DNA from: Opitutus sp. GAS368
GTDB lineage: Bacteria; Verrucomicrobiota; Verrucomicrobiia; Opitutales; Opitutaceae
Length of the DNA: 46,684 nt
Assembly (NCBI GenBank): GCA_945874455.1
Contig: CAMCHO010000013.1
Coordinates: 1-46,684 of the forward strand
Direction: 5' to 3'
Part shown: one piece after another, positions 3,749 through 37,356 of the stretch
How the letters are laid out: every line of letters starts with the position of its first letter
Position numbering within the stretch: the first letter of the stretch is position 1
Made by a program: the position numbers and the translations under genes
Notes under the pieces: model-generated
Told to the model about the DNA's origin: nothing
Seen by the model: the letters and a program-made list of their open reading frames with translations, nothing else
Databases searched by the model: none

Positions 3749-3889
3749 CCCTCTCAAAATGAGCGTTTTTTTGGCAGAATAAATACCGGCGCGATCTTTC
3801 CTCGATCGGGACTTCCCCGCTTGCCGCTTGAAAACACTGCGCCCCTCCTTCGTCATTTTCCCGTCCCGTCAACCACCTCCCCCCGCCCC

Positions 3890-5239
3890 ATGAAACCTCG
3901 CTGCCTCCTCCGCCTCGCCTTCGTCTGCGCGTTGCTCACCCCGTTCCTGTCGTCGAACGCGGCGCAACCGAACATCGTCATTTTCTACGCCGACGATCTC
4001 GGCTGGGGAGAACTCGGCTGCCAAGGCTACACCAAAGACATCCCCACGCCCCACATCGATGCTCTCGCAAAAAACGGCCTCCGCTTCACCAACGGCTACG
4101 TCGCCGCGACCTATTGCAGCCCGTCGCGCGCCGGCCTCATGACGGGCCGTTATCCGACGCGCTTCGGCCACGAATTCAACACCGTCGCCAACACGGTCGG
4201 CCTCCGCAGCGATCAGACCACGATCGCGACGCGACTGAAAACCCTCGGCTACGCCACGATCGCCGTCGGCAAATGGCACCTCGGCAATCAACCGGAAAAC
4301 CTCCCCACTAAGCGCGGCTTCGATGAATTCTACGGCACGCTCAACAACACGCCGTTCTTCCACCCGACCAACTTCATCGATTCGCGCATTTCCAACGAAG
4401 TGCAAACCGTGACCGATCCCAATTTCTACACCACCGACGCCTATGCCGACCGTTCGATCGACTGGATCGAGAAAAATAAAACCAAGCCGTGGTTCCTCTA
4501 CCTGCCGTTCAACGCCCAGCACGCACCGCTGCAGGCTCCCAAAAAATATCTGGAGCGCTTTCCAAAAATCACTGACGAAAAACGCCAGCTGTTCGCCGCC
4601 ATGATGGCCAGCATGGACGACGCCATCGGCCGCGTGGTCGGAAAAATCCGCGCCCTTGGCCAGGAGGAGAACACCCTCATCTTCTTCATCGCCGACAACG
4701 GCGGCCCCACCGCGAGCACGACTTCGCACAACGGCCCCCTCCGTGGTTTCAAGATGACCACCTTCGAAGGCGGCCCGCGCGTCCCCTACATCGCCCAGTG
4801 GAAAGGCAAAATCCCCGCCGGAAAAACCTACGACCTCCCGGTCATGAATCTCGATGTACTGCCCACCGCCATCATCGCCGCCGGCGGCAAGACCGATTCG
4901 TCCTGGCAACTCGATGGAGTCGACCTGATGCCCTACCTCACGGGCAAACTAACCTCGCGCCCCCATCAAACGCTCTACTGGCGCTACGGCCCGCAATGGG
5001 CCATCCGCCACGGCGACCTGAAACTCGTCGTCTCCAAAGGCGGCAGCGGCCAACCGGAACTCTACGACCTCGCCACCGACATCGGTGAATCCAAGGACCT
5101 CGCGTCCGCCCAGCCCGCGAAAGTGAAAGAACTCCAAGCCCTCTGGGATAAATGGAGCGCCGAGCAAGCCCCCGCCAGCACCCCCGACGCCAGCGGCGGA
5201 GGCGCCACGAAAAAGAACAAAAAGAAACAAGGGAAATGA
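3890..5239 (+). CDS. S1-family sulfatase (arylsulfatase-like)
   Basis: A 449-residue exported sulfatase. A signal peptide precedes the core (residues 1 to about 25, S-S-N-A-A-Q-P-N). The metal motif Y-A-D-D-L-G-W-G-E-L-G is followed by formylglycine motif C-S-P-S-R from Cys76, then the catalytic G-K-W-H-L and the D-N-G-G metal loop. The Met at 3890 gives a proper signal peptide; an upstream in-frame ATG at 3821 would add an unlikely 23-residue extension. The C-terminus is Lys-rich (K-K-N-K-K-K-Q-G-K), shared in style with the sulfatase at 35956. A palindrome upstream may control it. Substrate unknown. Confidence 0.93.
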   Translation: MKPRCLLRLAFVCALLTPFLSSNAAQPNIVIFYADDLGWGELGCQGYTKDIPTPHIDALAKNGLRFTNGYVAATYCSPSRAGLMTGRYPTRFGHEFNTVANTVGLRSDQTTIATRLKTLGYATIAVGKWHLGNQPENLPTKRGFDEFYGTLNNTPFFHPTNFIDSRISNEVQTVTDPNFYTTDAYADRSIDWIEKNKTKPWFLYLPFNAQHAPLQAPKKYLERFPKITDEKRQLFAAMMASMDDAIGRVVGKIRALGQEENTLIFFIADNGGPTASTTSHNGPLRGFKMTTFEGGPRVPYIAQWKGKIPAGKTYDLPVMNLDVLPTAIIAAGGKTDSSWQLDGVDLMPYLTGKLTSRPHQTLYWRYGPQWAIRHGDLKLVVSKGGSGQPELYDLATDIGESKDLASAQPAKVKELQALWDKWSAEQAPASTPDASGGGATKKNKKKQGK

Positions 5240-7635: not shown

Positions 7636-9021
7636 ATGAATTCTTTCCCTTCTGCTCGTTTTTGCGCGTTACCCCTCCTGCTTCTCGCGCTCGCTGCACT
7701 CTCCGCCGCGCCAGCGGCGAGCCCATCGAAACCCAACATCATCTTCATCCTCGCCGACGATCTTGGCTACGGCGACCTCGGCTGCATGGGTGCGACCGAT
7801 ATCAAGACGCCGCACCTCGATCGTCTCGCCGCCGAGGGGGTGAAATTCACCGATTTCTACGCCAACGCCCCCGTGTGCTCACCCACGCGCGCCGGGTTCA
7901 TGACCGGCCGCTGGCAGCAACGCATCGGGCTCGAGTTCGCTTTTGGTTACCAGGTCGAGCAATCGCGTCGCGTCAACGGCGCGTGGGTCCCCGAGCCCGA
8001 CATCCACGGTCTCGGCCTCCCTCTTGGCGAGACCACCATCGCTGATCGCCTCAAAACCGCGGGCTACGCCACCGGCGCCTTCGGCAAATGGCACCTCGGC
8101 TACCGCGACGCCTACAACCCCACCAAGCGCGGCTTCGACGAGTATTTCGGCGAGCTCCTCGGGCATGCTGACTACTACCAACACGCATATTACGACGGCA
8201 CGCCCGCCCTCCGCGAAGGCCTGCAGCCCGTGAAACGCGAGGGCTACTTCACCGATCTCGTCAACGCGCGCGCCGTGAAATTCGTCCGCGATCACGCAGC
8301 GCATCCGTTTTTCCTGTACGTCCCGCATCTCGCCGTGCACGGGCCGTTCCAACCACCTGACGCGCCCGGCACGCCGTTTGTCACCAAGGAGACAATGCTC
8401 CACGGCAGCCGCGCCATCTACAAGGCCATGCTCGAACGCGTGGACCGCGGCGTGGGCGAAATCCTCGCCGAGCTCGATCGACAGGGCATCGCCGAAAACA
8501 CCCTCGTCGTTTTCTCCAGTGACAACGGCGGCGAACGTTGGTCGCGCAACACCCCGCTCTTTCATCACAAGGCCACCCTTTGGGAAGGCGGCATCCGCGT
8601 GCCGTGTCTCATGCGCTGGCCCGCAAAACTCCCGCGCGGAAAAGTCACCGCGCAGATGGGCATCACCATGGATCTGCATGCGACGTTCCTCGCCGCCGCC
8701 GGCATCAGCGCGCCAAGCGAGAAAACCCTCGATGGCCTCGACCTCCTCCCGCTGCTCACCGCCGACGCCGCGCCGCGCGAGCGCACGTTTTTCTGGCGCA
8801 TCGATCGGTCCAACCGCAAGCAGCGCGCCGTCCGCGAGGGCCAGTGGAAATACCTGAACGACGGCAACACCATGGACCTGCTCTTCGACCTCGCCGCCGA
8901 CATCGGCGAGCGCACCAACCTCAATTTCCGCCATCCGGAAATCACCGCGCGCCTGAAAAAGAAACTCGCGGCGTGGGAAGCCGAGATGGACACCTCCGAC
9001 CGCGAGATCCTCGTGCGCTGA
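7636..9021 (+). CDS. S1-family sulfatase
   Basis: A 461-residue exported sulfatase with signal peptide (about 1-25, A-P-A-A-S). The metal motif is A-D-D-L-G-Y-G-D-L-G, the formylglycine motif C-S-P-T-R starts at Cys81, and G-K-W-H-L-G-Y and S-D-N-G-G-E are intact. This spacing resembles arylsulfatase A/GALNS-like bacterial members. The start follows the broken sigma relic by 18 bp. This suggests it was once the distal gene of a sigma/FecR/receptor module whose middle was deleted. No regulatory site is obvious. Substrate unknown. Confidence 0.93.
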   Translation: MNSFPSARFCALPLLLLALAALSAAPAASPSKPNIIFILADDLGYGDLGCMGATDIKTPHLDRLAAEGVKFTDFYANAPVCSPTRAGFMTGRWQQRIGLEFAFGYQVEQSRRVNGAWVPEPDIHGLGLPLGETTIADRLKTAGYATGAFGKWHLGYRDAYNPTKRGFDEYFGELLGHADYYQHAYYDGTPALREGLQPVKREGYFTDLVNARAVKFVRDHAAHPFFLYVPHLAVHGPFQPPDAPGTPFVTKETMLHGSRAIYKAMLERVDRGVGEILAELDRQGIAENTLVVFSSDNGGERWSRNTPLFHHKATLWEGGIRVPCLMRWPAKLPRGKVTAQMGITMDLHATFLAAAGISAPSEKTLDGLDLLPLLTADAAPRERTFFWRIDRSNRKQRAVREGQWKYLNDGNTMDLLFDLAADIGERTNLNFRHPEITARLKKKLAAWEAEMDTSDREILVR

Positions 9022-9228
9022 TCCGGCCCTCTCGCAGCAGCGCCACCGCACCACGTCGTTCCACTGAACGCCGGTCCGCCCTCTCTTTAACCGCCACGCT
9101 TGCCCCACCTCAGCCATCCTCACGCCCCGAGCACGTGCACGCCAAGGGGCTGGCACACCCCGCCGCGGCACCCTCTTCATCTGCGATGCCTACACGCCAT
9201 CGCCCCAAAACGACCGCACCACCCTTCC

Positions 9229-10707
9229 ATGCTCACCGCGGCTGAATCACTCCTGCGACGCTGGCCCCGCCTGCTCGCGTTCGCGGCGCTCACGTCGAGC
9301 CTCCACTCGGCGAACGCTCCTCGTCCCAACATCCTCTTCATTGCCGTCGACGATCTCGGCAGCGTGTTGCACTCGGCCGGCGATCGCGTCGCCTCCACGC
9401 CGAACCTCGACCGACTCGCCGCCACCGGCGTGCGCTTCGACCGCGCGTATTGCCAAATCCCGCTCTGCAATCCGACACGCGCTTCGTTGCTCACTGGCCT
9501 CCGGCCCGACGCGACCGGCGTCTACGATCTGGCACGGCACTTCCGCGCCTCCGTGCCGGAGGTGGTCACCCTGCCGCAGCTTTTCAAAAACCACGGCTGG
9601 TTCAGCGCCCGCGTCGGCAAGCTCTATCACTACGACGTGCCCAGCGGCATCGGCACCGACGGCCTCGACGACTCGCCCTCGTGGAATGTCGTCGTCAACC
9701 CACGGGGGCGCGACGTCACGGACGCCGCCCACATCGTCAATCCCACACCGCAAAAGCCCGTCAGCGCCGCCCTCAGCTGGCTCCGCGCGGAGGGAACCGA
9801 CGAGGAACAGACCGACGGCCTGATCGCCACCGCAGCGATCCGTTTGCTGGAGCAGTCACGCGGAAACCCCTTTTTCCTCGGTGTCGGATTTTTCCGCCCG
9901 CATACGCCCTTCGTCGCGCCAAAAAAATATTTCGACCGCTACCCCATCGGAAAAATTCATTTACCCATCGCTTCACCCGACGACCGCGCCGACATTCCGC
10001 CGGCCGCTTTCGCGCACAACAATCCGACGCCACACTACGGACTCGACGAATCCACGCTCCGCTCCGCTCTCCAAGCCTACTATGCGTCCGTCTCGTTTGT
10101 GGACGCGCAAGTCGGCCGTTTGCTCGACGCCCTCGACCGACTTGGCCTCGCCCGCGACACTATCGTCGTGCTCTGGAGCGATCACGGCTATCATCTCGGC
10201 GAGCATCTCGGCGTCTGGCAGAAACGAACCCTCTTCGAGGAATCCGCCCGCGCTCCGCTGATCATTCGTGATCCGACGGCCCGGGGCAACGGCTCCGCCT
10301 GCGCCCGCATCGTCGAATTCGTGGATATTTTTCCCACGCTCGCCGAACGCTGCGGACTTCCGTTCCCCGCCGATCTGGCCGGCCGCAGCTTGCAGCCGCT
10401 GCTCGCCCATCCAACGGCCGATTGGGACGGCCGCGCCATCACCCAAATTCTGCGCCCGCCCGACGCCCGTTTTTCGCAGCCCGTGATGGGCCGCAGTATC
10501 CGTACCGAACGCTGGCGTTTCACCGAATGGAACGAAGGCCGCGAAGGCGCGGAGCTCTACGATCACACCGCCGACCCCCACGAGCTCCGCAATCTCGCTG
10601 CCGATCCCGCGCACGCCTCCACCGTCCGCGATCTGCGCGCCCGCCTTGCACCGCTCGCCCGCGGCACGGCGCCAGATGCGGTGAACTTCAACCCGGCGCG
10701 ACTGTAG
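9229..10707 (+). CDS. Iduronate-2-sulfatase-like sulfatase
   Basis: A 492-residue exported sulfatase closest in pattern to iduronate-2-sulfatase-like enzymes: [11 protein letters not shown], formylglycine motif C-N-P-T-R from Cys80, then [11 protein letters not shown]. The G-K-L-Y-H motif replaces G-K-W-H, and [11 protein letters not shown] is the metal loop. These enzymes remove 2-O-sulfate from uronic or related sugars. The Met at 9229 opens directly into a signal peptide; an in-frame ATG at 9100 would add an implausible His/Pro-rich leader. The 207 bp upstream shows no clear feature. Family assignment is good; exact sugar is unknown. Confidence 0.92.
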
Positions 10708-19958: not shown

Positions 19959-21356
19959 ATGCCCCAAAACCTCATCGCTCACGTGATCAGACTCGCCCTG
20001 TACGGAGTCGTCGCCTCGGCGGCGTTCGCCGCCACGCCCGCTCCCACCACCGCCGGTCGCCCCAACATCGTGTTCATCCTCGCCGACGACTGGGGCTGGG
20101 GCGATCTCGGATCGCACGGCCACGCGTATCTCAAAACGCCGCACCTCGACCAACTCGCCGCCGCGGGCACCGACTTTCGCCAATTCACCGTCGCCGGCAG
20201 CGTGTGCTCACCCAGTCGCACCGCGCTCATGACCGGACAGTTTCCCGCGCGGTTCAGCATCCACGGGCATTTCGCCACGGTGCAGAGCCATGTACAGCGC
20301 GGGATGCCCGACTGGCTGAACCCGCAGGCGGTGCTGCTGCCGCGACTCTTGCAACAAGCCGGCTACGCGACCGCGCACTACGGAAAATGGCACCTCACCA
20401 ACATCATGGTGCCGGATGCCCCGTTGCCCTCAGAATACGGATACGACACCTACGGCACTTACAATTGTCCCGGCCCGCAGATGCCCGTGCACGACGATGT
20501 GAAGCACTCGATCGCGTTCATCGAAAAAAGCCGCGCGGCCGGGAAGCCGTTCTTCCTCAACCTGTGGATTCACGAACCCCACACGCCGCATTATCCGAAG
20601 CCGGAATACCTGGAAAAATTTGCGCATCTGCCGGACGAGGCCCAGCGGATTTACGCCGCAGTGATCGCCCACGCCGACGCGCGCATCGGCGAACTGCTCG
20701 CCGCGCTGGATCGGCTAGGTCTAGCGAAAAACACCCTTGTGGTCTTCACCTCCGACAACGGCCCCGAAATCACCGGTCCGGCTGATCGCCGCATGGGCGA
20801 AGACGAGTCGACCGGGCCCGGATTCAGCAGCTGGGCCTCCGTCGGCAGCACGGGCGGGCATCGCGGCCGCAAACGTTCCCTGCTGCAGGGCGGCATCGGC
20901 GTACCCTTCATCGCCCGCTGGCCCGGCAAGATCCCCGCCAGCAACGTTGACGACACGACGCCCCTCACGGCCGTGGATCTGCTGCCGACGTTGTGCGCGC
21001 TGGCGGGCGCCCCATTGCCGGGAAGTTACGCCCCTGACGGCGTCGACCAGAGCGAGGCGCTGTTGGGTAAATCCACCTCGCGACGCGCCAAGCCGATCTT
21101 CTGGCAATGGCCGACGCCGGGCAAACCCGGGGACAGTTGGCCGACCCTTGCCGTGCGCGATGGCGACGGAAAACTACTGGTTGGAAAAGATACGAAGCCC
21201 CTCGAGCTTTTCCGTTTTCCTCAGGACCGATGGGAAAAAACCAATGTCGGCGAACAGGATCCCGCCGAGGTGAAGCGCCTCCAGTCGCTCCTTGCCGCTT
21301 GGACGGCGACCCTCCCCCGCCAACCCGATCCGCAGTGTTTTTCCAAAACGCGCTGA
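19959..21356 (+). CDS. S1-family sulfatase, module 1
   Basis: A 465-residue exported sulfatase ending the module 1 operon. Signal peptide is about 1-25. The metal motif is A-D-D-W-G-W-G-D-L-G, the formylglycine motif C-S-P-S-R starts at Cys83, and G-K-W-H-L and T-S-D-N-G-P are intact. Only 29 bp separate it from the GH127-like gene, so it is likely co-expressed and desulfates the same glycan. The 659-bp space that follows suggests the operon ends here. Confidence 0.93.
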   Translation: MPQNLIAHVIRLALYGVVASAAFAATPAPTTAGRPNIVFILADDWGWGDLGSHGHAYLKTPHLDQLAAAGTDFRQFTVAGSVCSPSRTALMTGQFPARFSIHGHFATVQSHVQRGMPDWLNPQAVLLPRLLQQAGYATAHYGKWHLTNIMVPDAPLPSEYGYDTYGTYNCPGPQMPVHDDVKHSIAFIEKSRAAGKPFFLNLWIHEPHTPHYPKPEYLEKFAHLPDEAQRIYAAVIAHADARIGELLAALDRLGLAKNTLVVFTSDNGPEITGPADRRMGEDESTGPGFSSWASVGSTGGHRGRKRSLLQGGIGVPFIARWPGKIPASNVDDTTPLTAVDLLPTLCALAGAPLPGSYAPDGVDQSEALLGKSTSRRAKPIFWQWPTPGKPGDSWPTLAVRDGDGKLLVGKDTKPLELFRFPQDRWEKTNVGEQDPAEVKRLQSLLAAWTATLPRQPDPQCFSKTR

Positions 21357-27335: not shown

Positions 27336-28853
27336 ATGAACGGCGCTCTTCCTCCCATCCTCCTTCGCTGGGGTTGGCTCCTGGCCGCTAGCGCGCTCCT
27401 GCATGCGGCAGCTTTCGCCTCCGCCGCGACTCCGCCCAACCTTATCTTCCTGTTTTCCGACGACCAGAACGCCCGCGCGATCGGCTACGAAAACCCAGAG
27501 GTGATCACCCCGCACCTCGACCAGCTCGCGCGCGAGGGCGTGCGGTTCACCAATCATTACAACACCACCTCGATCTGCATGGCCAGCCGGTGCAACGTGC
27601 TCACCGGCCTCTACGAGTACCGCCACGGCTGCAACTTTGACCATGGCGACCTCGCGCGCCGCTTCCTCGAGGAATCCTACCCCGTGCTCCTGCGGCGCGC
27701 CGGCTACATCACCGGCTTCGCCGGAAAAATCGGCTTCGACCTCAAGGGAGAAAAATTCGACGCGCTGGCCTCGTTTTTCGACCGCTGGGCCGGCGGGCCC
27801 GGTCAGACGTTTTACGAAACGGAAAAGAACCCCGGCATCGCCCGCTATGCCACACAGTATCCGCACTGTTCTCGCGCCTACGGAGCGTGGGCGGTCGATT
27901 TCCTCAAGACGGCGAAAGCCACCGGCAAACCCTTTTGCCTGTCGGTCAGCTTCAAGGCGCCTCACCTGCCGTTCACGCCCGATCCGCAGGACGCGAAGCT
28001 CTACGCAGGCAAGAAGTTTTCCCGCCCGCCCAACTACGGCGTGGACCGCGGCCGCCATCTCTCAGCCCAGGCGCGCACCAGCCGTGCCGCCACCGGCTAT
28101 CGCGAATGGATCAACGACTATGATAATTCCGCCGCGGCCTACTACGCGTTGATCACCGGAATCGATGCCGCCGTCGGCATGATTCGCGAGGCGCTCACCC
28201 GCGAGGGCCTCGCCGCCAACACGGTCATCGTCTACACCGCCGACAACGGTTACAGCATGGGCGCGCACGGTTTTGGCGACAAGGTGCTCCCCTACGAGGC
28301 CGCCTCGAAATCGCCGCTCATCGTCTTTGACCCGGGCCTGCCGCGAGCCCACGCCGGCACGGTGAGCCACGCCCTCACCGCCAACGTCGATGTCGCCGCG
28401 ACCCTCCATGCGCTCGCCGGCGTGCCGGCCCCTGCCGGCATCGATGGGAAGAGTCTTCTGCCCCTCCTCACCGCCCCGCAGGGCCGCGTGCGCGACGCCC
28501 TGCCGCTCTTCAATTTCTGGGGCGCCGTCTCCGCGCAAACGCTCGCCATCGTCACGCCCGGATGGAAGTACGTCTACTGGTCTTACGGAGGTGAGGGGAT
28601 GCAGCCGACCGAGGAGCTTTTTGCCCTCGCGGCGGATCCCTACGAGCTGAACAACCTGGCGGCCGACGCCCGCCATGCCGCGCAGCTCGCGACGCTGCGC
28701 CGCGCCTACGACACCGAACTCGCCGCGATCCAGGCCCGGCTCACCTCCGGCCACGACTACGAAAAATACCCCATGCTCTTCAGCCGCACGATCCCTTGGA
28801 GCGAAAAATCCGCCCCCCCGCCAGCCCCCAAAGCGAAACGCAAAGCGCTGTAA
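27336..28853 (+). CDS. S1-family sulfatase with C-M-A-S-R active site
   Basis: A 505-residue exported sulfatase. A signal peptide (about 1-30) precedes L-F-S-D-D-Q-N-A-R-A-I-G. The modification site reads C-M-A-S-R from Cys81, that is C-x-A-x-R rather than the usual C-x-P-x-R. The normal G-K-W-H motif is G-K-I-G-F, so the catalytic His is not in its usual place. The metal loop T-A-D-N-G-Y and the later Lys (G-D-K-V-L) are kept. It belongs to a divergent sulfatase branch but should still be active if its Cys is matured. Lies in the module 2 operon before the MocA-type gene. Confidence 0.9.
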   Translation: MNGALPPILLRWGWLLAASALLHAAAFASAATPPNLIFLFSDDQNARAIGYENPEVITPHLDQLAREGVRFTNHYNTTSICMASRCNVLTGLYEYRHGCNFDHGDLARRFLEESYPVLLRRAGYITGFAGKIGFDLKGEKFDALASFFDRWAGGPGQTFYETEKNPGIARYATQYPHCSRAYGAWAVDFLKTAKATGKPFCLSVSFKAPHLPFTPDPQDAKLYAGKKFSRPPNYGVDRGRHLSAQARTSRAATGYREWINDYDNSAAAYYALITGIDAAVGMIREALTREGLAANTVIVYTADNGYSMGAHGFGDKVLPYEAASKSPLIVFDPGLPRAHAGTVSHALTANVDVAATLHALAGVPAPAGIDGKSLLPLLTAPQGRVRDALPLFNFWGAVSAQTLAIVTPGWKYVYWSYGGEGMQPTEELFALAADPYELNNLAADARHAAQLATLRRAYDTELAAIQARLTSGHDYEKYPMLFSRTIPWSEKSAPPPAPKAKRKAL

Positions 28854-28955: not shown

Positions 28956-30311
28956 ATGAAACCTCACCTGCTCACGCGACGGTCCTTTCTCCTGCGAAGC
29001 TCCGCCACCGCCTTGGCGGCTAACGTCGGCATCTCCAGTCGCATCTTTGGCGCCGGGGCTGCCGTCCCCCCCAGCAGTCGCATCAACCTCGGCTTCATCG
29101 GCACGGGGCGTCAGGTCTTCCACGCCAATCTGCCGGGCTTTCTCTGGCGGACCGATGTCCAGGTCGTCGCCGTCTGTGACGTCGATCGCTGGCGCGCGGA
29201 GAAAGCGCGTGACAAGGTGCACGAGACCTACGCCGAGGCGAAGGCCTCCGGTTCCTACAACGGCTGCGCCGTGTACGAAGACTTCCGCGAGCTGCTCGCG
29301 CGGCCTGACATCGACGCAGTGATGATCTCCACGCCAGACCATTGGCATGCCGTCATGGCGATCGCCGCCGCCCGCGCCGGCAAGGACGTCGCCCTCGAAA
29401 AACCGATCTCCCTCAGCCTCACCGAGGGCCGCGCCATCGCGGACGCGATGAAACAGCACGGCCGCATCTTCCGCACCGACACCGAAGTGCGCTCCAACCC
29501 GCGCTTCCCGCGGCTTTGTGAGATCGTCCGCAACGGAGGCATCGGGAAAGTGCGGCGCGTGATCGCCACCGTGCCGAAGAGTCCAGATCCCATCGCGGGG
29601 TTTCCGGCGGCAATGCCGGTGCCGCCGGACTTGAACTACGCCCTCTGGCAGGGCCCGGCCCCCGACCGGCCCTACACCCAACAACGGGTCCATTTTCCGC
29701 GCGGCGGCCTCGGCTACATCGCCGGCCAGGTCCCCGGATGGTCCCAGATCACCGACTACAATCTCGGCAACCTCAACAACTGGGGCGGGCACATGCTAGA
29801 CATCACTCAGTGGGCCCTCAACACCGAGCGCACCGGCCCGGTCGAAGTATCCGCTCGGGCCGAGTTTCCGCCCCACTCCCTCTGGGATGTCCCCCGGAAC
29901 TTCGAGGTCCGCTACCGCTACGCTAGCGGCATCGAAGTCGACTACACCGACGCCGGCACCGCGAGCGTGCGCGTCGAAGGCACCGACGGCTGGGTCGAAA
30001 ACACCTGGTTCAAGTCCGACGGCTTCAAGGCCAGCAAGCCCGAGTTGCTGAAATGGAAGCCCGGCCCCGGCGAACTCGCCCTCCCGGTGGTCGATGAAAG
30101 GGAGGATTTCATCGCCTGCGTGAAGAGCCGCCGCGAGACCATCATCCCTGCCGAGGTCGGCCATCGCGCCGCGAGCATGGCGCAGATCGCGTACATCGCC
30201 GCCAAGCTCGGCGGCACCCTCAATTGGGATCCCTTGCATGAGCGCTTCCCCGACAGCGCCGAAGCCAACCGCCTGCTCTCCCGCCCCCTGCGCGGACCGT
30301 GGAAACTCTGA
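28956..30311 (+). CDS. Tat-exported Gfo/Idh/MocA-family oxidoreductase
   Basis: A 451-residue NAD(P)-dependent oxidoreductase. Tat signal T-R-R-S-F-L-L-R-S-S sits at about 7-16. A Rossmann fold carries G-F-I-G-T-G-R, and the family E-K-P motif is Glu148-Lys149-Pro150. The substrate-side helix has N-N-W-G-G-H-M-L-D-I-T-Q-W. Exported members with bound NAD include GH109-type glycosidases, while others oxidise or reduce sugars; which applies is open. Upstream gap is 102 bp; downstream the fusion gene starts 14 bp after the stop. Likely co-transcribed with the lyase-like and glycosidase-like genes. Confidence 0.9.
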   Translation: MKPHLLTRRSFLLRSSATALAANVGISSRIFGAGAAVPPSSRINLGFIGTGRQVFHANLPGFLWRTDVQVVAVCDVDRWRAEKARDKVHETYAEAKASGSYNGCAVYEDFRELLARPDIDAVMISTPDHWHAVMAIAAARAGKDVALEKPISLSLTEGRAIADAMKQHGRIFRTDTEVRSNPRFPRLCEIVRNGGIGKVRRVIATVPKSPDPIAGFPAAMPVPPDLNYALWQGPAPDRPYTQQRVHFPRGGLGYIAGQVPGWSQITDYNLGNLNNWGGHMLDITQWALNTERTGPVEVSARAEFPPHSLWDVPRNFEVRYRYASGIEVDYTDAGTASVRVEGTDGWVENTWFKSDGFKASKPELLKWKPGPGELALPVVDEREDFIACVKSRRETIIPAEVGHRAASMAQIAYIAAKLGGTLNWDPLHERFPDSAEANRLLSRPLRGPWKL

Positions 30312-30325
30312 TCCCCCGCTTCCCG

Positions 30326-33067
30326 ATGCCTTCGTTGCTTCGTCAGCTCCCTGCCTTTGCCCTCGCGAGCCTCCTCACCTCCTGGGCCGCTCCAGCCACC
30401 ACGGATGCCGGCCGGGCCAATCCATTCTTCGCTTTCGACAATGGCGTGGGGCGCGGCGACGGCTGGTCCCCAGAAAAGCAGGCCGTCACCCTCGCGCGCC
30501 TCGGCTACGCCGGCATCGGCTACACCGGGCTCGACGACCTCGCCACCCGCCAGGCCGCGTTCCAGACCGCCAGCCTGCGCATCTTCAGCGTCTATGTCGC
30601 CGCCGACGTCGCGAAGACACCCGCCTTCGATCCCAGGCTCCCCGAGTCATTTCCGCAACTGGCCGCCACCGGGACCGACGTCTGGCTGACCCTGCCCGGC
30701 AAGTCGTCCAACGACGAGAGCGCCGTCGCCATCGTCCGCGAACTCGCCGAGGCCGCCGCGCGCCACGGCGTGCGCATCGTCCTGTATCCACACAAAGGAT
30801 TCTTTGTTGCCACGGCGGAGGACGCCCTCCGCGTCGTCCGCCAGGTGAACCGCCCCAACGTCGGCCTGACGTTCAACCTCGCCCACGAACTCGCCGCCGG
30901 CCACGCCGGCCGTCTCGCCCTGATCATCAAGGCGATCGCGCCGCACCTCATGCTCGTTTCCGTCAACGGCGCCGACCCCTCCGGCGGCTGGGAGCAGTTC
31001 ATCCGTCCACTCGACGAAGGCAGCCTCGACGTCGCTGCCGTGCTCCGGCACCTCGACGCCGCCGGCTACCGCGGCCCCATCGGCCTCCAATGCTACAACA
31101 TCAAAGGGGAACCGGACACGCTACTGCTGCGGTCCATCGCCGCCTGGCGAAAGCTGCCAGACACGACCGCCGCGCCGCCGCCAGCGGCCACGCCGAGCTT
31201 CGCGACGCTCCTGGACGCGGCGCAGGCTGACGAGTCCCTGGCCGGTGCGCGGCAATCTCTCATCGCCGCGGCCCGCAAGGCTGCCGCCGAGCCGATCATT
31301 CGCCGGTGCTACACGCTCGAAGAGATCGGCAAGAACCGCACTTTCTACGACGGCCGGGCCGACGCCCTCGACGGGGAGAACAAGTTCCTCTTCGCCTCCG
31401 CTATGGCTGATTTCGGTGCGGCGGGGACCGTGGCCGCGGAACTGCCCTTGATCGCCGCCGCTGCCCGTCTCACCGGCGACGGTTCGTTCAAGCGGCGCGT
31501 GCTCGCGCAGCTCGAGGAAATGTCCACGTGGTCGCCCCTGCAGCGTACCGGCTGGACGCGCTCCTCCCCCGGGAAACGTCTGCCCAAGGATGGCAAAGAC
31601 GGTTCGTGGCTGGCCACCGGCACCGGCGTCCGCGCCATCGCTGACACGCTCGAGATCCTGGCGCCGGAGGACGTGCCGCCGGAACTGCGGGCGAGACTCG
31701 AGTCGCTGCTGCGGGCCGAGATCGCCGAGGTGATGGAAGACTGGCGGCTCCGGCGGCAATGGTTCGTCAAGTCGAACAACCCCATCACCAACCAATGGGT
31801 GCTGCCCAACGAGGGACTGGTGCGCGCCTGCGTGCTCCTCGGCCGCCAGAATTTTCCAAACGAGTACGAGCTGGGCGTGACCAACCTGCTGCGCAGCCTC
31901 GACGCGCAGGGCACCGACGGAGAATTCAAGGAAGGCCTGCATTACGCGATGTTCACCGTCACGTCGCTGATGGCGGCGGCAAGGGCGACCGCCCGCGACG
32001 GCGACCGCCGCCTGATCGACCACCCGTTCCTTCAGCGCTTCCCGCGATGGGTCATCCACCACCTCCAGCCTGCCCGCAAGATCATCAATGCCTTCGACTG
32101 CTTCTCCAACTCGGCGCCGCGTCATGAAGGCGCGATGTTGGATATGCTCGCGGCCTGCGGGAGCCACCTTGCCAGCCGCGAAGCGGTCTGGGCGATGCGC
32201 CACCTGTTCGACGGTCCTCCGGACAAGCTGGAAGGACTGTTCAGCCGCGCCATGCCGGTCGCGACCCAGGAGCCACCGCTGTTTGCAGCTTACGAGCGCG
32301 CGACGCGCGTCAACTGGCGCGACCACTGGGACGATGGCGGCAGCGGCGTTTGGATCCGCGGCGGCCACACGGACGATCAGCACGACCACAAGGATCGCGG
32401 CCACGTGAACTTCATTCACCAGGGCCGGTGCATCCTCATCGAGGCCGGCACGCCCGCCTACCACAACCCCCGGATGCTCTCGCACTACGCCTCCGGCCTG
32501 GGCCACAACGTGCTGCAGATCGGCGATGCGGCCCCGCCGACCAATTCAACCCAGACGCCCCCTGGCTGGCAAAAGGCGAAGGCCGTCGCGCCCATTCAGG
32601 TGCAGCGGTTGGACGCGACCGGCGGTGAAGTCAGCGTGGATGCGACCGCCGGATACGATGACCTTGAGCGATGGCGCCGCGCGGTGAAGTGGACAACCGA
32701 CACGGTCGAAGTCCGAGACGACGTCGCGCTGGCCGGCGCCAAGACCGGGCAAATCCTGTTCCGCTGGCACCTGGGCACCCGCCATCCCGTCGAGGTCTCC
32801 GGCCAAGACGGCAAGTGGCAGGTCTCGTGGCCGGACGCGACGATGGCGATCGAGTCGGCCACCGCGCTCGAGGTGACCCAGGAGCAGTTGCCCGACCACA
32901 CGCTGGAGGAGCGCACCTGGGAGGAAACCGGCAAAGATTGGCTGCACGCCTGCGTGATCGTGCGCACGACCACACCCGCAACCTCCGCCGGGATCGTCAC
33001 GCGCGTCGTGGCTCGATCTCCGGCAACGAACGCCGAATCAACCCCCAAGACAGGATCCAACCCATGA
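30326..33067 (+). CDS. TIM-barrel epimerase-like domain fused to heparinase II/III-like lyase
   Basis: A 913-residue exported two-domain protein. After a signal peptide (1 to about 25), residues about 30-275 resemble xylose-isomerase-like TIM barrels (L-A-R-L-G-Y-A-G-I-G-Y-T-G, then H-G-V-R-I-V-L-Y-P-H). A Pro/Ala linker (about 276-290) follows. The rest resembles heparinase II/III-type lyases: an (alpha/alpha) toroid with N-Q-W-V-L-P-N-E-G and E-G-L-H-Y-A-M-F, then a beta-sandwich with H686-D-H688-K-D690-R-G-H. Lyases of this class cleave uronate polymers by elimination. The Met at 30326 opens the signal peptide; a GTG at 30299 overlaps the previous gene. Overlaps the next gene by ATGA. Confidence 0.85.
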   Translation: MPSLLRQLPAFALASLLTSWAAPATTDAGRANPFFAFDNGVGRGDGWSPEKQAVTLARLGYAGIGYTGLDDLATRQAAFQTASLRIFSVYVAADVAKTPAFDPRLPESFPQLAATGTDVWLTLPGKSSNDESAVAIVRELAEAAARHGVRIVLYPHKGFFVATAEDALRVVRQVNRPNVGLTFNLAHELAAGHAGRLALIIKAIAPHLMLVSVNGADPSGGWEQFIRPLDEGSLDVAAVLRHLDAAGYRGPIGLQCYNIKGEPDTLLLRSIAAWRKLPDTTAAPPPAATPSFATLLDAAQADESLAGARQSLIAAARKAAAEPIIRRCYTLEEIGKNRTFYDGRADALDGENKFLFASAMADFGAAGTVAAELPLIAAAARLTGDGSFKRRVLAQLEEMSTWSPLQRTGWTRSSPGKRLPKDGKDGSWLATGTGVRAIADTLEILAPEDVPPELRARLESLLRAEIAEVMEDWRLRRQWFVKSNNPITNQWVLPNEGLVRACVLLGRQNFPNEYELGVTNLLRSLDAQGTDGEFKEGLHYAMFTVTSLMAAARATARDGDRRLIDHPFLQRFPRWVIHHLQPARKIINAFDCFSNSAPRHEGAMLDMLAACGSHLASREAVWAMRHLFDGPPDKLEGLFSRAMPVATQEPPLFAAYERATRVNWRDHWDDGGSGVWIRGGHTDDQHDHKDRGHVNFIHQGRCILIEAGTPAYHNPRMLSHYASGLGHNVLQIGDAAPPTNSTQTPPGWQKAKAVAPIQVQRLDATGGEVSVDATAGYDDLERWRRAVKWTTDTVEVRDDVALAGAKTGQILFRWHLGTRHPVEVSGQDGKWQVSWPDATMAIESATALEVTQEQLPDHTLEERTWEETGKDWLHACVIVRTTTPATSAGIVTRVVARSPATNAESTPKTGSNP

Positions 33068-35355
33068 AAAAGTTTCAGCCCATCAATCGCCGGGAGTTTC
33101 TCCAAAGAGCGTCCACCGCGTCCGCCGCGATTTCGTTCGGCGCACTCGCCAGCCAAATTCCGGCGGCAGCCGCAACGCCCACGACTGGCGCGCCGGCACT
33201 CACCTTGGACGACCTGGGCACGGCCTGGCTTCGCCGGCGGATGACCCGGCCAGCCGCCATGCCGGGCCTGGGAAACGACCTGGGGTCGGTGCAGATCGAA
33301 GCGGACATTGCCGCGATCAAGCATCCGGTCTTTCCGCCCTATAGCGGAGGCAACGAGATCACGGCGCTGACCCTGATTAATGGGCGCAGTCTCGCGCAGG
33401 CGGTACCGCACGTGGAGATTCGCTGGCGGGCGTTCGAGGTGGAACGTCGCTGCGAGGCCGGCGGCTGGCACTTAAGCAGCCGCACCTCGCTGTTGCCCGG
33501 GCAGCCCGGGGCGGTCGTGCGGGTCCGCGTCGAGAATCGCCACGGCGCGCCACGGCGGTTGCGCCTCGGCTTCCTGCTTTCCGGCCGCGCGATGAACCAA
33601 GGTGCCGATGGTTATTCCTGGCGGGTGCCGGCGATCCCGACCGAACCAGGGTCGTTGATGATCCATGACGGTTTGCAACAGACTGTGCAACGGGCGCTGG
33701 ATGGGGCGGGAGTACTGCTGACCAACGAGGCAGGGAACGCCTTTAGCGTGCAGGGTTGCCGGCCCGCCCCGGATCGCTGGAACACGGAGCGTTCCCCCTC
33801 CTGGGAACGCGATCTGAAGGCCGGCGAGGTGTTCGAGGTATCCCTACTGTTCACTTTTCATTCCGATCGCGAACAAGCCGGGCAAATCGCCCGGCAATGG
33901 TACGGCCGGGAAGACGAGGCCTTTGCCGCCGGCCGCCTCCGGTGGGAATCACTCTGGCAGGCCGCGTTCACGCCGAACAATGGCATTTTCAGCGGTTCGC
34001 TGCCTGTGGTCCACACGCCCAACGCGGCCCTCGCAAAACTATACTACATGGGCGTGCTCTCGCTGGTGGCATCCCGCCGGCAATATGGTTGGGGGGTCGT
34101 TGACCCCAGTTACGTTACACTCTGGCCCCGCCGCGGCGAAGGCTCCGCTTACCTCGCCTGGGATTTGCCCTACACCAGCGGTCTGCTCGCCCGACTCGAT
34201 CCCGCGGTCTTGAGCAAGATGATGCGCCTGCAGTTCTCCGCACCGTGGCTGGACTACCAGAAAACCAACCTGTTTTCCGGAGAACACAGCGGCTGGCCGT
34301 GTTGCGCCCAGCCTCAAGCGGTGAGCACGGCCGCGCTCAACCTCTGGCGCTGGCAGGGCGACCAGTCGTGGCGCCAATGGAAGATCACCCAACTGCCCCG
34401 CCAAGCCCAAACCAGGCGCGGCAAGGCCGCCAATCCCGTCCGGGCGAAATCGGACGGCGACGGGAAGACGGTGGAGACGACCGGCGAAGCTGTCTTCCGT
34501 CAGGCCGTTGAAGTCCACCGGCAACGCCGGCTCCCGAACCGGGCGCTGGTGGACTTTGGTCCGCGCAACGCCTACCTCGAGTGCATCACCACCTACGCCC
34601 ACGGCACGGCCGGGCATACCGCCGTGCAGGCGTGGGCCTTGGCTGAATCCGCGCGGGCGTTCGGCGATCCCCCCGCTAGCGAGCGGCCAGACTTGTTGAA
34701 CGCGATTCGCTCGCTCTACCGCGAGGGGAAGGGCTTCTTCGCCTGCGAATACCCCGATGGCAGCCGGCGCGACGCGGCCAATCTCTACGACGTCGGCCTG
34801 GTCCTCAATCACATGGGCCAAGAGCTGCCGCCAGCCTGGGTCGCCGAAATCACGCGCTTCGTGCGGGAAACGCTCGCGACGCCGACTTGGGCGCATTGCC
34901 TGTCGCCCACCGATGCTGACACGGCGAGCGGCCTGCGCGCGGACCATCAATGGGCGGGGTGCTTTGGCGCCTGGCCCGCGCAGTTCCTGCTCGGCGCGAT
35001 GCGCGCGGGTCATTGGGATCCGTGGTTTGAAACTTGGATCGGCGGGCTCGCACGCATCACGGCGCAGGGTCCGTTTGCCCAGGCCTACTGGGCCGAAGAC
35101 ATGTCCGAACCGGAGGCCGGCGCCGCGGCGAAGGTTTTTGACGACCTACCCCAAGGCAACCACTGGGCTATTGCCAGCGGAGCGCATTTTGCCGAGATGG
35201 TGCTGGATGGCGTTGCCGGACTGCACGCAACCGCCGGCGGCACGCTGGAGGCAGACACGAGGGAATGGCCGCTCCGCCAGGGATTGCAGGTGACGGGAAT
35301 CGCGCACCGGGGGCACCGCTATGTGCTGGATAAGAGTCTCCAGCAAATCTCATGA
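33064..35355 (+). CDS. Tat-exported six-hairpin glycosidase-like protein
   Basis: A 763-residue protein with Tat signal N-R-R-E-F-L-Q-R-A-S (about 8-17). An N-terminal beta-rich domain (about 50-270) has D-L-G-S-V-Q-I-E and repeated beta strands. A helical part (about 290-740) has Trp-rich motifs such as W-D-L-P-Y-T-S-G and H-S-G-W-P-C-C. The layout resembles (alpha/alpha)6 glycosidases or ulosonate-type hydrolases, but I do not recognise a specific GH family and cannot name the catalytic acids. Its start overlaps the lyase fusion stop (ATGA), so the two probably work on the same glycan, perhaps hydrolysing the lyase products. Confidence 0.7.
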   Translation: MKKFQPINRREFLQRASTASAAISFGALASQIPAAAATPTTGAPALTLDDLGTAWLRRRMTRPAAMPGLGNDLGSVQIEADIAAIKHPVFPPYSGGNEITALTLINGRSLAQAVPHVEIRWRAFEVERRCEAGGWHLSSRTSLLPGQPGAVVRVRVENRHGAPRRLRLGFLLSGRAMNQGADGYSWRVPAIPTEPGSLMIHDGLQQTVQRALDGAGVLLTNEAGNAFSVQGCRPAPDRWNTERSPSWERDLKAGEVFEVSLLFTFHSDREQAGQIARQWYGREDEAFAAGRLRWESLWQAAFTPNNGIFSGSLPVVHTPNAALAKLYYMGVLSLVASRRQYGWGVVDPSYVTLWPRRGEGSAYLAWDLPYTSGLLARLDPAVLSKMMRLQFSAPWLDYQKTNLFSGEHSGWPCCAQPQAVSTAALNLWRWQGDQSWRQWKITQLPRQAQTRRGKAANPVRAKSDGDGKTVETTGEAVFRQAVEVHRQRRLPNRALVDFGPRNAYLECITTYAHGTAGHTAVQAWALAESARAFGDPPASERPDLLNAIRSLYREGKGFFACEYPDGSRRDAANLYDVGLVLNHMGQELPPAWVAEITRFVRETLATPTWAHCLSPTDADTASGLRADHQWAGCFGAWPAQFLLGAMRAGHWDPWFETWIGGLARITAQGPFAQAYWAEDMSEPEAGAAAKVFDDLPQGNHWAIASGAHFAEMVLDGVAGLHATAGGTLEADTREWPLRQGLQVTGIAHRGHRYVLDKSLQQIS

Positions 35356-35955: not shown

Positions 35956-37356
35956 ATGAAAAACCCCCTCCGCCTCGCGCTTGCCCTTTTCGCGTCTTTC
36001 TTCGTTCCCCGTTTTTCGTTCGCCGCGCAACCGAACCTCATCCTTTTCCTCGCGGATGACCTCGGCTACGGCGACCTCGCCAGCTACGGCCACCCCATCA
36101 TCAAAACGCCGAACCTCGACGCGTTCGCGCACCAGGGCGTCCGGCTCACGCAGTGCTACTCCGCCAGCGCCGTGTGCAGTCCATCGCGCTCGGCCCTGCT
36201 CACGGGCCGCACCCCGTTTCGCAACGGCGTCTACACCTGGATCGCCGAGGGCGGTGTCGCGCACTTGCGCACGAGTGAAATCGCCTTGCCGCGACTGCTC
36301 AAGGGCGCGGGCTACGCGACCTGCCATAGCGGCAAGTGGCATCTCAACGGCCTGTTCAACAATCTCGCGCAGCCGCAGCCCGGCGATCACGGCTACGACT
36401 GGTGGATGGCCACGCAGAACAACGCCGGCCCGTCGCACGAGAACCCGAGCAATTTCGTCCGCAACGGCCAGCCGGTCGGCCCGCTGCAGGGCTACTCCGC
36501 GCCGCTCGTCGTCAGCGAGGCGATCACGTGGCTGCAGGAAAAACGCGACACCTCGAAGCCGTTCTTCCTCGCGGTGTGGACGCACGAACCGCACTACCCG
36601 ATCAAATCGGACCCCAAGTTCAAGGCCTTGTATCCCAATCTCACCGACGATGTGCAGCGCGAGCACCACGCCAACGTCACGCAGATGGATCACGCCTTCG
36701 GGATGCTCATGAAATCGCTCGACGAGCAGAAGCTCACCGACAGCACGTTTGTTTTTTTCACCTCGGACAACGGCCCCGAAGGCGACGGCATCACGACGCC
36801 CGGGCGCGGTTCCAGCGGCGGCTTGCGCGAACGCAAGCGCTCCATGCACGAGGGCGGCATCCGCGTGCCGGGCCTCGCGCGCTGGCCCGGCCACCTCAAG
36901 CCCGGCACGACGAGTGACGTGCCCGTCATCGGCAGCGACGTGTTTCCCACGATGCTCGCCATCGCCGGCGTCAAGCCGCCCGCCGACCGCGTGCTCGACG
37001 GCGTGAACATTTTGCCCGTCCTCACCGGCACCGTGACGAAACTCGCCCGCCCGCAGCCGCTCTACTGGCGGCTCAATATGGCCCCGAACGCGAAGGTCGC
37101 GATGCGCGTGGACGACTGGAAGATTCTCGCCAACGCGGAACTCACCGAGTTCGAACTCTACAATCTCAAAACCGACGCCCGCGAAACCACCGACCTCAAG
37201 GCCACGGAGCCGCAACGTTTCGCGGCGTTGCGCGACCAACTCCTCAAGCACCACGCTGCCGTCGAAGCCGAAGGCCCCGATTGGTGGCGGCACCTAGGTC
37301 CAAGCGGCCTCGCAAAGGTGGACGGACCTGCGGTGAAAAAGGGGAAGAAGCAATAG
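35956..37356 (+). CDS. S1-family sulfatase
   Basis: A 466-residue exported sulfatase. A signal peptide (1 to about 23, S-F-A-A-Q) precedes F-L-A-D-D-L-G-Y-G-D-L-A. The formylglycine motif C-S-P-S-R starts at Cys74, and G-K-W-H-L and T-S-D-N-G-P are intact. The C-terminus is Lys-rich (V-K-K-G-K-K-Q). The relic at 5253-5535 is clearly derived from a close paralogue of this gene: both the metal motif and the A-E-G-P-D-W tail match. It stands about 50 bp after the MITE-like element and is followed by an aldose epimerase gene. Confidence 0.93.
   Translation: MKNPLRLALALFASFFVPRFSFAAQPNLILFLADDLGYGDLASYGHPIIKTPNLDAFAHQGVRLTQCYSASAVCSPSRSALLTGRTPFRNGVYTWIAEGGVAHLRTSEIALPRLLKGAGYATCHSGKWHLNGLFNNLAQPQPGDHGYDWWMATQNNAGPSHENPSNFVRNGQPVGPLQGYSAPLVVSEAITWLQEKRDTSKPFFLAVWTHEPHYPIKSDPKFKALYPNLTDDVQREHHANVTQMDHAFGMLMKSLDEQKLTDSTFVFFTSDNGPEGDGITTPGRGSSGGLRERKRSMHEGGIRVPGLARWPGHLKPGTTSDVPVIGSDVFPTMLAIAGVKPPADRVLDGVNILPVLTGTVTKLARPQPLYWRLNMAPNAKVAMRVDDWKILANAELTEFELYNLKTDARETTDLKATEPQRFAALRDQLLKHHAAVEAEGPDWWRHLGPSGLAKVDGPAVKKGKKQ

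Follow-up and report, generated by a model that had tools for sequence, protein, structure and literature searches.

The window, a stretch of 46,684 nt, holds an open reading frame for a 913-residue protein in which a signal peptide is followed by a TIM barrel, a Pro/Ala linker, and a heparinase II/III-type lyase, in that order (Table 1); an in-frame GTG lies at 30299. Pfam places AP_endonuc_2 (PF01261) at residues 131-276 (E 3.3e-20; 73.3 bits vs. a curated cut-off of 31.1) and Hepar_II_III_C (PF07940) at residues 684-839 (E 3.9e-12; 46.6 bits vs. a cut-off of 24), and neither Pfam nor NCBIfam has a family that covers the whole protein. This agrees with a preliminary description of the locus, which had proposed an exported protein with a TIM barrel at about residues 30-275, a Pro/Ala linker, and a heparinase-like remainder containing an H-D-H-K-D motif (found at 686-690), and which knew of no standard family with this order.

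The two halves were modeled separately with AlphaFold2, the TIM half from a 27-sequence alignment (mean pLDDT 92.9, pTM 0.88) and the lyase half from a 38-sequence one (mean pLDDT 92.6, pTM 0.92). The first, as the preliminary description expected, models as an eight-stranded TIM barrel (Z 25.5 to 1i60 in VIA-align), nearest in fold to IolI, IolE, YcjR, and ketose 3-epimerases (Z about 25; Foldseek, VIA-align). The second combines an alpha/alpha toroid with a beta-sandwich and is nearest to lyases of families PL15, PL35, PL33, and PL12 (Foldseek E down to 4e-22; Z 28.8 to 6ljl and 27.2 to 8khw in VIA-align). A PDB search with the single full protein retrieved matches for the TIM half only; the lyase half was matched by way of profiles, and remotely (PL33, 2e-11; PL35, 4e-10; also PL15).

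The gene just upstream encodes an exported Gfo/Idh/MocA oxidoreductase, a probable partner of the fusion protein. Its best NCBIfam match is NF058561 (BT_2158_fam glycoside 3-dehydrogenase), at 108.9 bits far below the cut-off of 750; it is 48% identical to the Gfo of a DUF1080-Gfo-TIM operon in genome G348, and 43% to that of the Runella operon described below. No gene for DUF1080, the 3-keto-disaccharide hydrolase family, occurs among the window genes scanned. The downstream 763-residue protein matches nothing in Pfam, NCBIfam, or the PDB sequences; at another locus (L090), a relative 46% identical to it is encoded close to a solo lyase and an alpha-L-fucosidase. The seven sulfatase-like genes around the fusion suggest a highly sulfated substrate; the natural first guess is a sulfated polysaccharide that carries uronates. 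The window contains no Rfam or tRNA feature.

Table 1. Positions of the fusion gene, its putative functional residues, and its neighbors in the window.
Feature	Position	Strand	Basis or remarks
Sulfatases (six)	128-1657, 3821-5239, 7636-9021, 9100-10707, 27336-28853, 35956-37356		Pfam or NCBIfam
GH127-like protein	17719		Pfam
Sulfatase-like gene (seventh)	19959-21356		By sequence
TonB-dependent receptor with STN domain	23654		
Exported Gfo/Idh/MocA oxidoreductase, 451 aa	28956..30311	+	Pfam GFO_IDH_MocA, GFO_IDH_MocA_C2; 14 bp upstream of fusion ORF
Fusion ORF, 913 aa and stop	30326..33067	+	Orthologue in G393
Signal peptide, residues 1 to about 25, without lipobox Cys	30326..30400	+	Read from sequence (MPSLLRQLPAFALASLLTSWAAPATT)
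TIM barrel, residues 31-277	30416..31156	+	Pfam PF01261, AlphaFold2, Foldseek, VIA-align
Tyr154-Pro155-His156, invariant	30785..30793	+	27/27 relatives; Tyr at beta-5 metal-ligand place, His at AtOGE catalytic His place
Asn184...His187 (N-L-x-H)	30875..30886	+	Asn at Asp metal-ligand place; His invariant
Ser212-Val-Asn214-Gly215	30959..30970	+	Ser/Thr at His metal-ligand place
Gln255, invariant	31088..31090	+	27/27 relatives; last Glu ligand place, aligned with Glu in 5hmq
Pro/Ala linker (TTAAPPPAATP), residues about 278-300	31157..31225	+	Low pLDDT at end of TIM model; length difference in G393
Heparinase II/III-type lyase, alpha/alpha toroid and beta-sandwich, residues about 301-897	31226..33016	+	Pfam PF07940, AlphaFold2, Foldseek, VIA-align
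Asn489-Gln490, probable carboxylate neutralizer	31790..31795	+	36/38 relatives; placed by motif vs. PL15/PL35/PL39
E-G-x-x-Tyr540, probable catalytic Tyr	31931..31945	+	Tyr 37/38; aligned with Tyr241 of GAGase VII (8khw)
His686-Asp-His688-Lys-Asp690, probable catalytic His and two metal ligands	32381..32395	+	36, 37, and 37 of 38
Glu706, probable metal ligand	32441..32443	+	Glu 35, Asp 2 of 38
His727-Asn728, possible last metal ligand	32504..32509	+	37/38; placed by motif only
Downstream gene, 763 aa, Tat-like signal	33064..35355	+	Overlaps fusion stop

Reality and distribution of the fusion

The source assembly is fragmented (333 contigs), and a join created by misassembly or a frameshift might be suspected. 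The same fusion is however found, without a stop, in a second assembly, that of an uncultured Opitutae MAG of the same genus (G393, contig CAJAYO010000263.1), where it is 95% identical and flanked by the same Gfo, downstream, and sulfatase genes. The linker there is 13 residues longer. The fusion is real; the G393 genome rules out an artefact, the chance of which we consider negligible. A comparison of the two copies indicates mild purifying selection, with dN/dS about 0.53 in the barrel and about 0.32 in the lyase, although few changes underlie both values.

The preliminary description proposed looking for this arrangement in other Verrucomicrobiota, and it proves to be rare there, G393 being the sole other case: at the thresholds used, no further fusions were found in overlapping sets comprising 388 genomes from the phylum, 57 relatives, 252 family members, and 373 genomes from the order. 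The lyase half is found at 54 loci in named genome contigs, one of them fused, and is widespread in unfused form (Hydrogenedentota, Planctomycetota, Lentisphaerae, Armatimonadetes, and Opitutaceae). Both halves are usually separate exported proteins. No viral contig yielded a relative of the barrel. On the evidence of these searches, the architecture is new, and a literature search found no paper describing a TIM barrel-heparinase protein; the novelty claimed earlier applies to this combination and not to either domain, each half belonging to a known superfamily.

The presence of the fusion in just two closely related genomes, and the freedom of its linker to vary in length and sequence, would also fit an accidental joining of adjacent genes with no functional coupling, in which case cleavage of the linker may let the two halves work independently. 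We regard this as improbable: the frame is free of stops in both genomes, the catalytic residues of both halves are intact, and on several separate branches of its family the barrel has been joined to enzymes that act on glycans.

The lyase half

The putative functional residues of the lyase half form the Asn/Tyr/His set and His/Asp metal loop typical of heparinase II/III-type enzymes, and Asn489, Tyr540, His686, His688, Asp690, Glu/Asp706, and His727 are each retained in at least 36 of 38 aligned rows. In the profile match to 8khw, the His686-Asp690 stretch aligns with His397 and the Mn loop of GAGase VII; a catalytic Tyr, His, and Mn loop have been described for PL35 lyases (PMC12088678). 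These residues make the C-terminal half a likely active uronate lyase. Together with the fold, they suggest a beta-elimination in which Asn489 would neutralize the uronate carboxylate, Tyr540 and His686 would serve as acid and base, and the His/Asp metal site would hold the loop.

Two relatives of this half differ from the common pattern. One (L034, 1240-3270, from the same genome as L117) has lost the catalytic Asn, Tyr, and His as well as the metal residues, and is perhaps an inactive lyase. Another (L118, 3446-7837) lies in an open frame with 889 codons ahead of the lyase domain; this extension ends in lyase-like sequence, so that the frame may encode two lyase domains in tandem.

The barrel subfamily

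The barrel is a member of an exported subfamily in which Tyr154-Pro155-His156, His187, Gln255, and Trp274 do not vary. The preliminary description had suggested a check for TIM metal ligands, and these are missing: where IolI-type enzymes have Glu, Asp, His, and Glu, profile alignments to 1i60 and 5hmq place Tyr154, Asn184, Ser212, and Gln255 (the register of Tyr154 follows a strand reading of the 1i60 match, at a point where HMMER puts a two-residue gap). The replacements characterize the whole subfamily and are not decay following the fusion.

A classic divalent-metal isomerase or epimerase, rearranging the sugar that the lyase releases, is the reading that fold and Pfam family would by themselves bring to mind, the nearest structures being of this type. 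Because all four ligands are replaced across the subfamily, an ordinary metal-dependent enzyme is unlikely, and the best NCBIfam isomerase matches are far below their cut-offs; we consider this reading very improbable. Of the earlier proposal that the barrel might isomerize or bind a sugar, the isomerase part accordingly loses ground, and the gene context and DUF1080 fusions described next point instead to 3-keto-sugar chemistry.

A Gfo/Idh/MocA gene is the immediate co-directional neighbor at 9 of 35 subfamily loci (in 7 of 28 genomes), where 0.5 would be expected from the number of Gfo genes in the same genomes. The associated P of 1e-9 is only indicative, because the loci were taken as independent and co-direction was set at 75%. 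The remaining 26 solo barrel loci have no adjacent Gfo gene. Besides the G348 operon, an AraC-DUF1080-Gfo-TIM set with the same YPH, NLCH, and GIQCY signatures is found on a Runella rosea plasmid (NZ_CP030852.1; L146, 4818-8870), so that this 3-keto-glycoside gene set may be passed among hosts; a Spirosoma plasmid encodes a more distant relative of the barrel, without the YPH signature. The source genome of the window (G000, 5.07 Mb) has 63 Gfo/Idh/MocA and 32 DUF1080 matches, so that, if the bifunctional reading given below holds, 3-keto chemistry may be a major way for these bacteria to use glycans.

Little studied as it is, the barrel family has been joined to several different sugar-chain enzymes. 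It is fused to DUF1080 in two proteins (L057, 1295-5158, also with HEAT repeats; L062, 2525-4033), to the C-terminus of GH97 enzymes in two more (L052, 2772-5618; L053, 3393-6014), and in three (L019, 2272-3420; L020; L056) to a following unnamed domain of about 380 residues, which in L019 has no Pfam or PDB sequence match. In the family tree, the heparinase fusion, the unnamed-domain fusions, and the two DUF1080 fusions lie on separate branches, while the GH97 fusions form one clade. The window barrel clusters with five solo barrels (support 99/94), two of which are in Gfo operons (G348 and G101). The fusion probably arose by the joining of two neighboring genes where a Gfo-TIM pair adjoined a lyase gene.

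Possible roles and characterized relatives

Taken together, the domains and their setting suggest a periplasmic two-domain enzyme of a sulfated-polysaccharide utilization locus. Its lyase would cut uronate chains, and the upstream dehydrogenase would make 3-keto-sugars or 2-hydroxy-3-keto-glycals for the barrel, a sugar-isomerase relative without the usual metal site, to convert; there His156 and His187 may move protons in an elimination or hydration. To this bifunctional reading, which for the barrel draws on gene context, fusions, and the retained His residues, we give roughly even chances. Such barrels have precedent, TIM barrels with 3-keto-glycoside eliminase and hydratase activities being known (PMC10628242). 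In Bacteroides thetaiotaomicron, the dehydrogenase BT2158 converts glucosinolates jointly with a second protein, which can be BT2156 or the DUF1080 protein BT2157 (reviewed in PMC12385236), and BT2157 has been described as a 3-ketotrehalose hydrolase (PMC9007349); a partner of the BT2156 or BT2157 sort is thus plausible for the window dehydrogenase. Counting against the bifunctional reading are the replacement of the metal ligands that the Agrobacterium O-glycoside beta-eliminase AtOGE needs, the lack of a DUF1080 gene among the window genes scanned, the low score of its Gfo against the BT_2158 family, and the many solo loci with no Gfo neighbor.

As the main rival, the barrel might be a non-catalytic sugar-binding module, like a CBM, that targets or anchors the lyase. 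The loss of the metal ligands would be consistent with this, as would the variety of partners to which the barrel is attached at either end (GH97-TIM, TIM-DUF1080, TIM-heparinase). Its barrel mouth, however, has His156, His187, Gln255, and Tyr154 invariant in 27 of 27 relatives, and many relatives stand alone, several of them within Gfo operons; this possibility seems to us unlikely, though it deserves to be kept in mind.

Returning to the catalytic reading, a broader and more tentative proposal is that barrels with the YPH and NLCH signatures are metal-independent 3-keto-sugar lyases or hydratases that have repeatedly been plugged into glycan enzymes (here a heparinase-type lyase; elsewhere GH97, DUF1080, and the unnamed domain), and that in the window protein uronate and 3-keto elimination are coupled. 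We think this somewhat doubtful as a whole. If the bifunctional reading holds, a single exported protein would carry out two glycan eliminations, across C4-C5 of uronates and C1-C2 of 3-keto-sugars, and an uncharacterized exported barrel family would gain a role in the recently recognized 3-keto-glycoside pathway. While the heparinase fusion is confined to a rare and local occurrence, the repeated joining of the barrel family to other enzymes is the more general lead, and the more interesting point.

Among characterized systems, the PL35 and PL33 enzymes (GAGase II and VII, 8khv and 8khw; BtPL33HA, 8r6z), PL15 (Atu3025, exoHep), and PL12 (HepIII) share the toroid and beta-sandwich fold, the Asn/Tyr/His set, and the His/Asp metal loop with the window lyase, at about 10-17% identity. 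They differ from it in having Asn or His where the window lyase has Gln490 next to the catalytic Asn, and in lacking an N-terminal TIM barrel. For the barrel half, IolI, IolE, YcjR, and ketose 3-epimerases have the same fold but keep the metal ligands that it has lost. The protein of structure 5hmq likewise contains an AP_endonuc_2-type barrel that is joined in nature to an enzyme domain unrelated to it; the partner is however a 4-hydroxyphenylpyruvate dioxygenase, from another pathway, and it retains Glu at the last ligand position. AtOGE, whose gene lies next to a glycoside dehydrogenase gene as the window barrel does, requires a metal and binds Mn through His132, Asp163, His189, and Glu233 (PMC10628242), which are Tyr, Asn, Ser, and Gln in the window barrel; it is not exported with a lyase domain. 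Its catalytic His134 is two residues past the beta-5 ligand position, as is His156 in the window barrel. Finally, the B. thetaiotaomicron BT2156-BT2159 operon for glycoside 3-oxidation includes a DUF1080 gene, in contrast to the surroundings of the window fusion, together with Gfo and a further gene, an arrangement resembling the DUF1080-Gfo-TIM operons in which relatives of the barrel are found.
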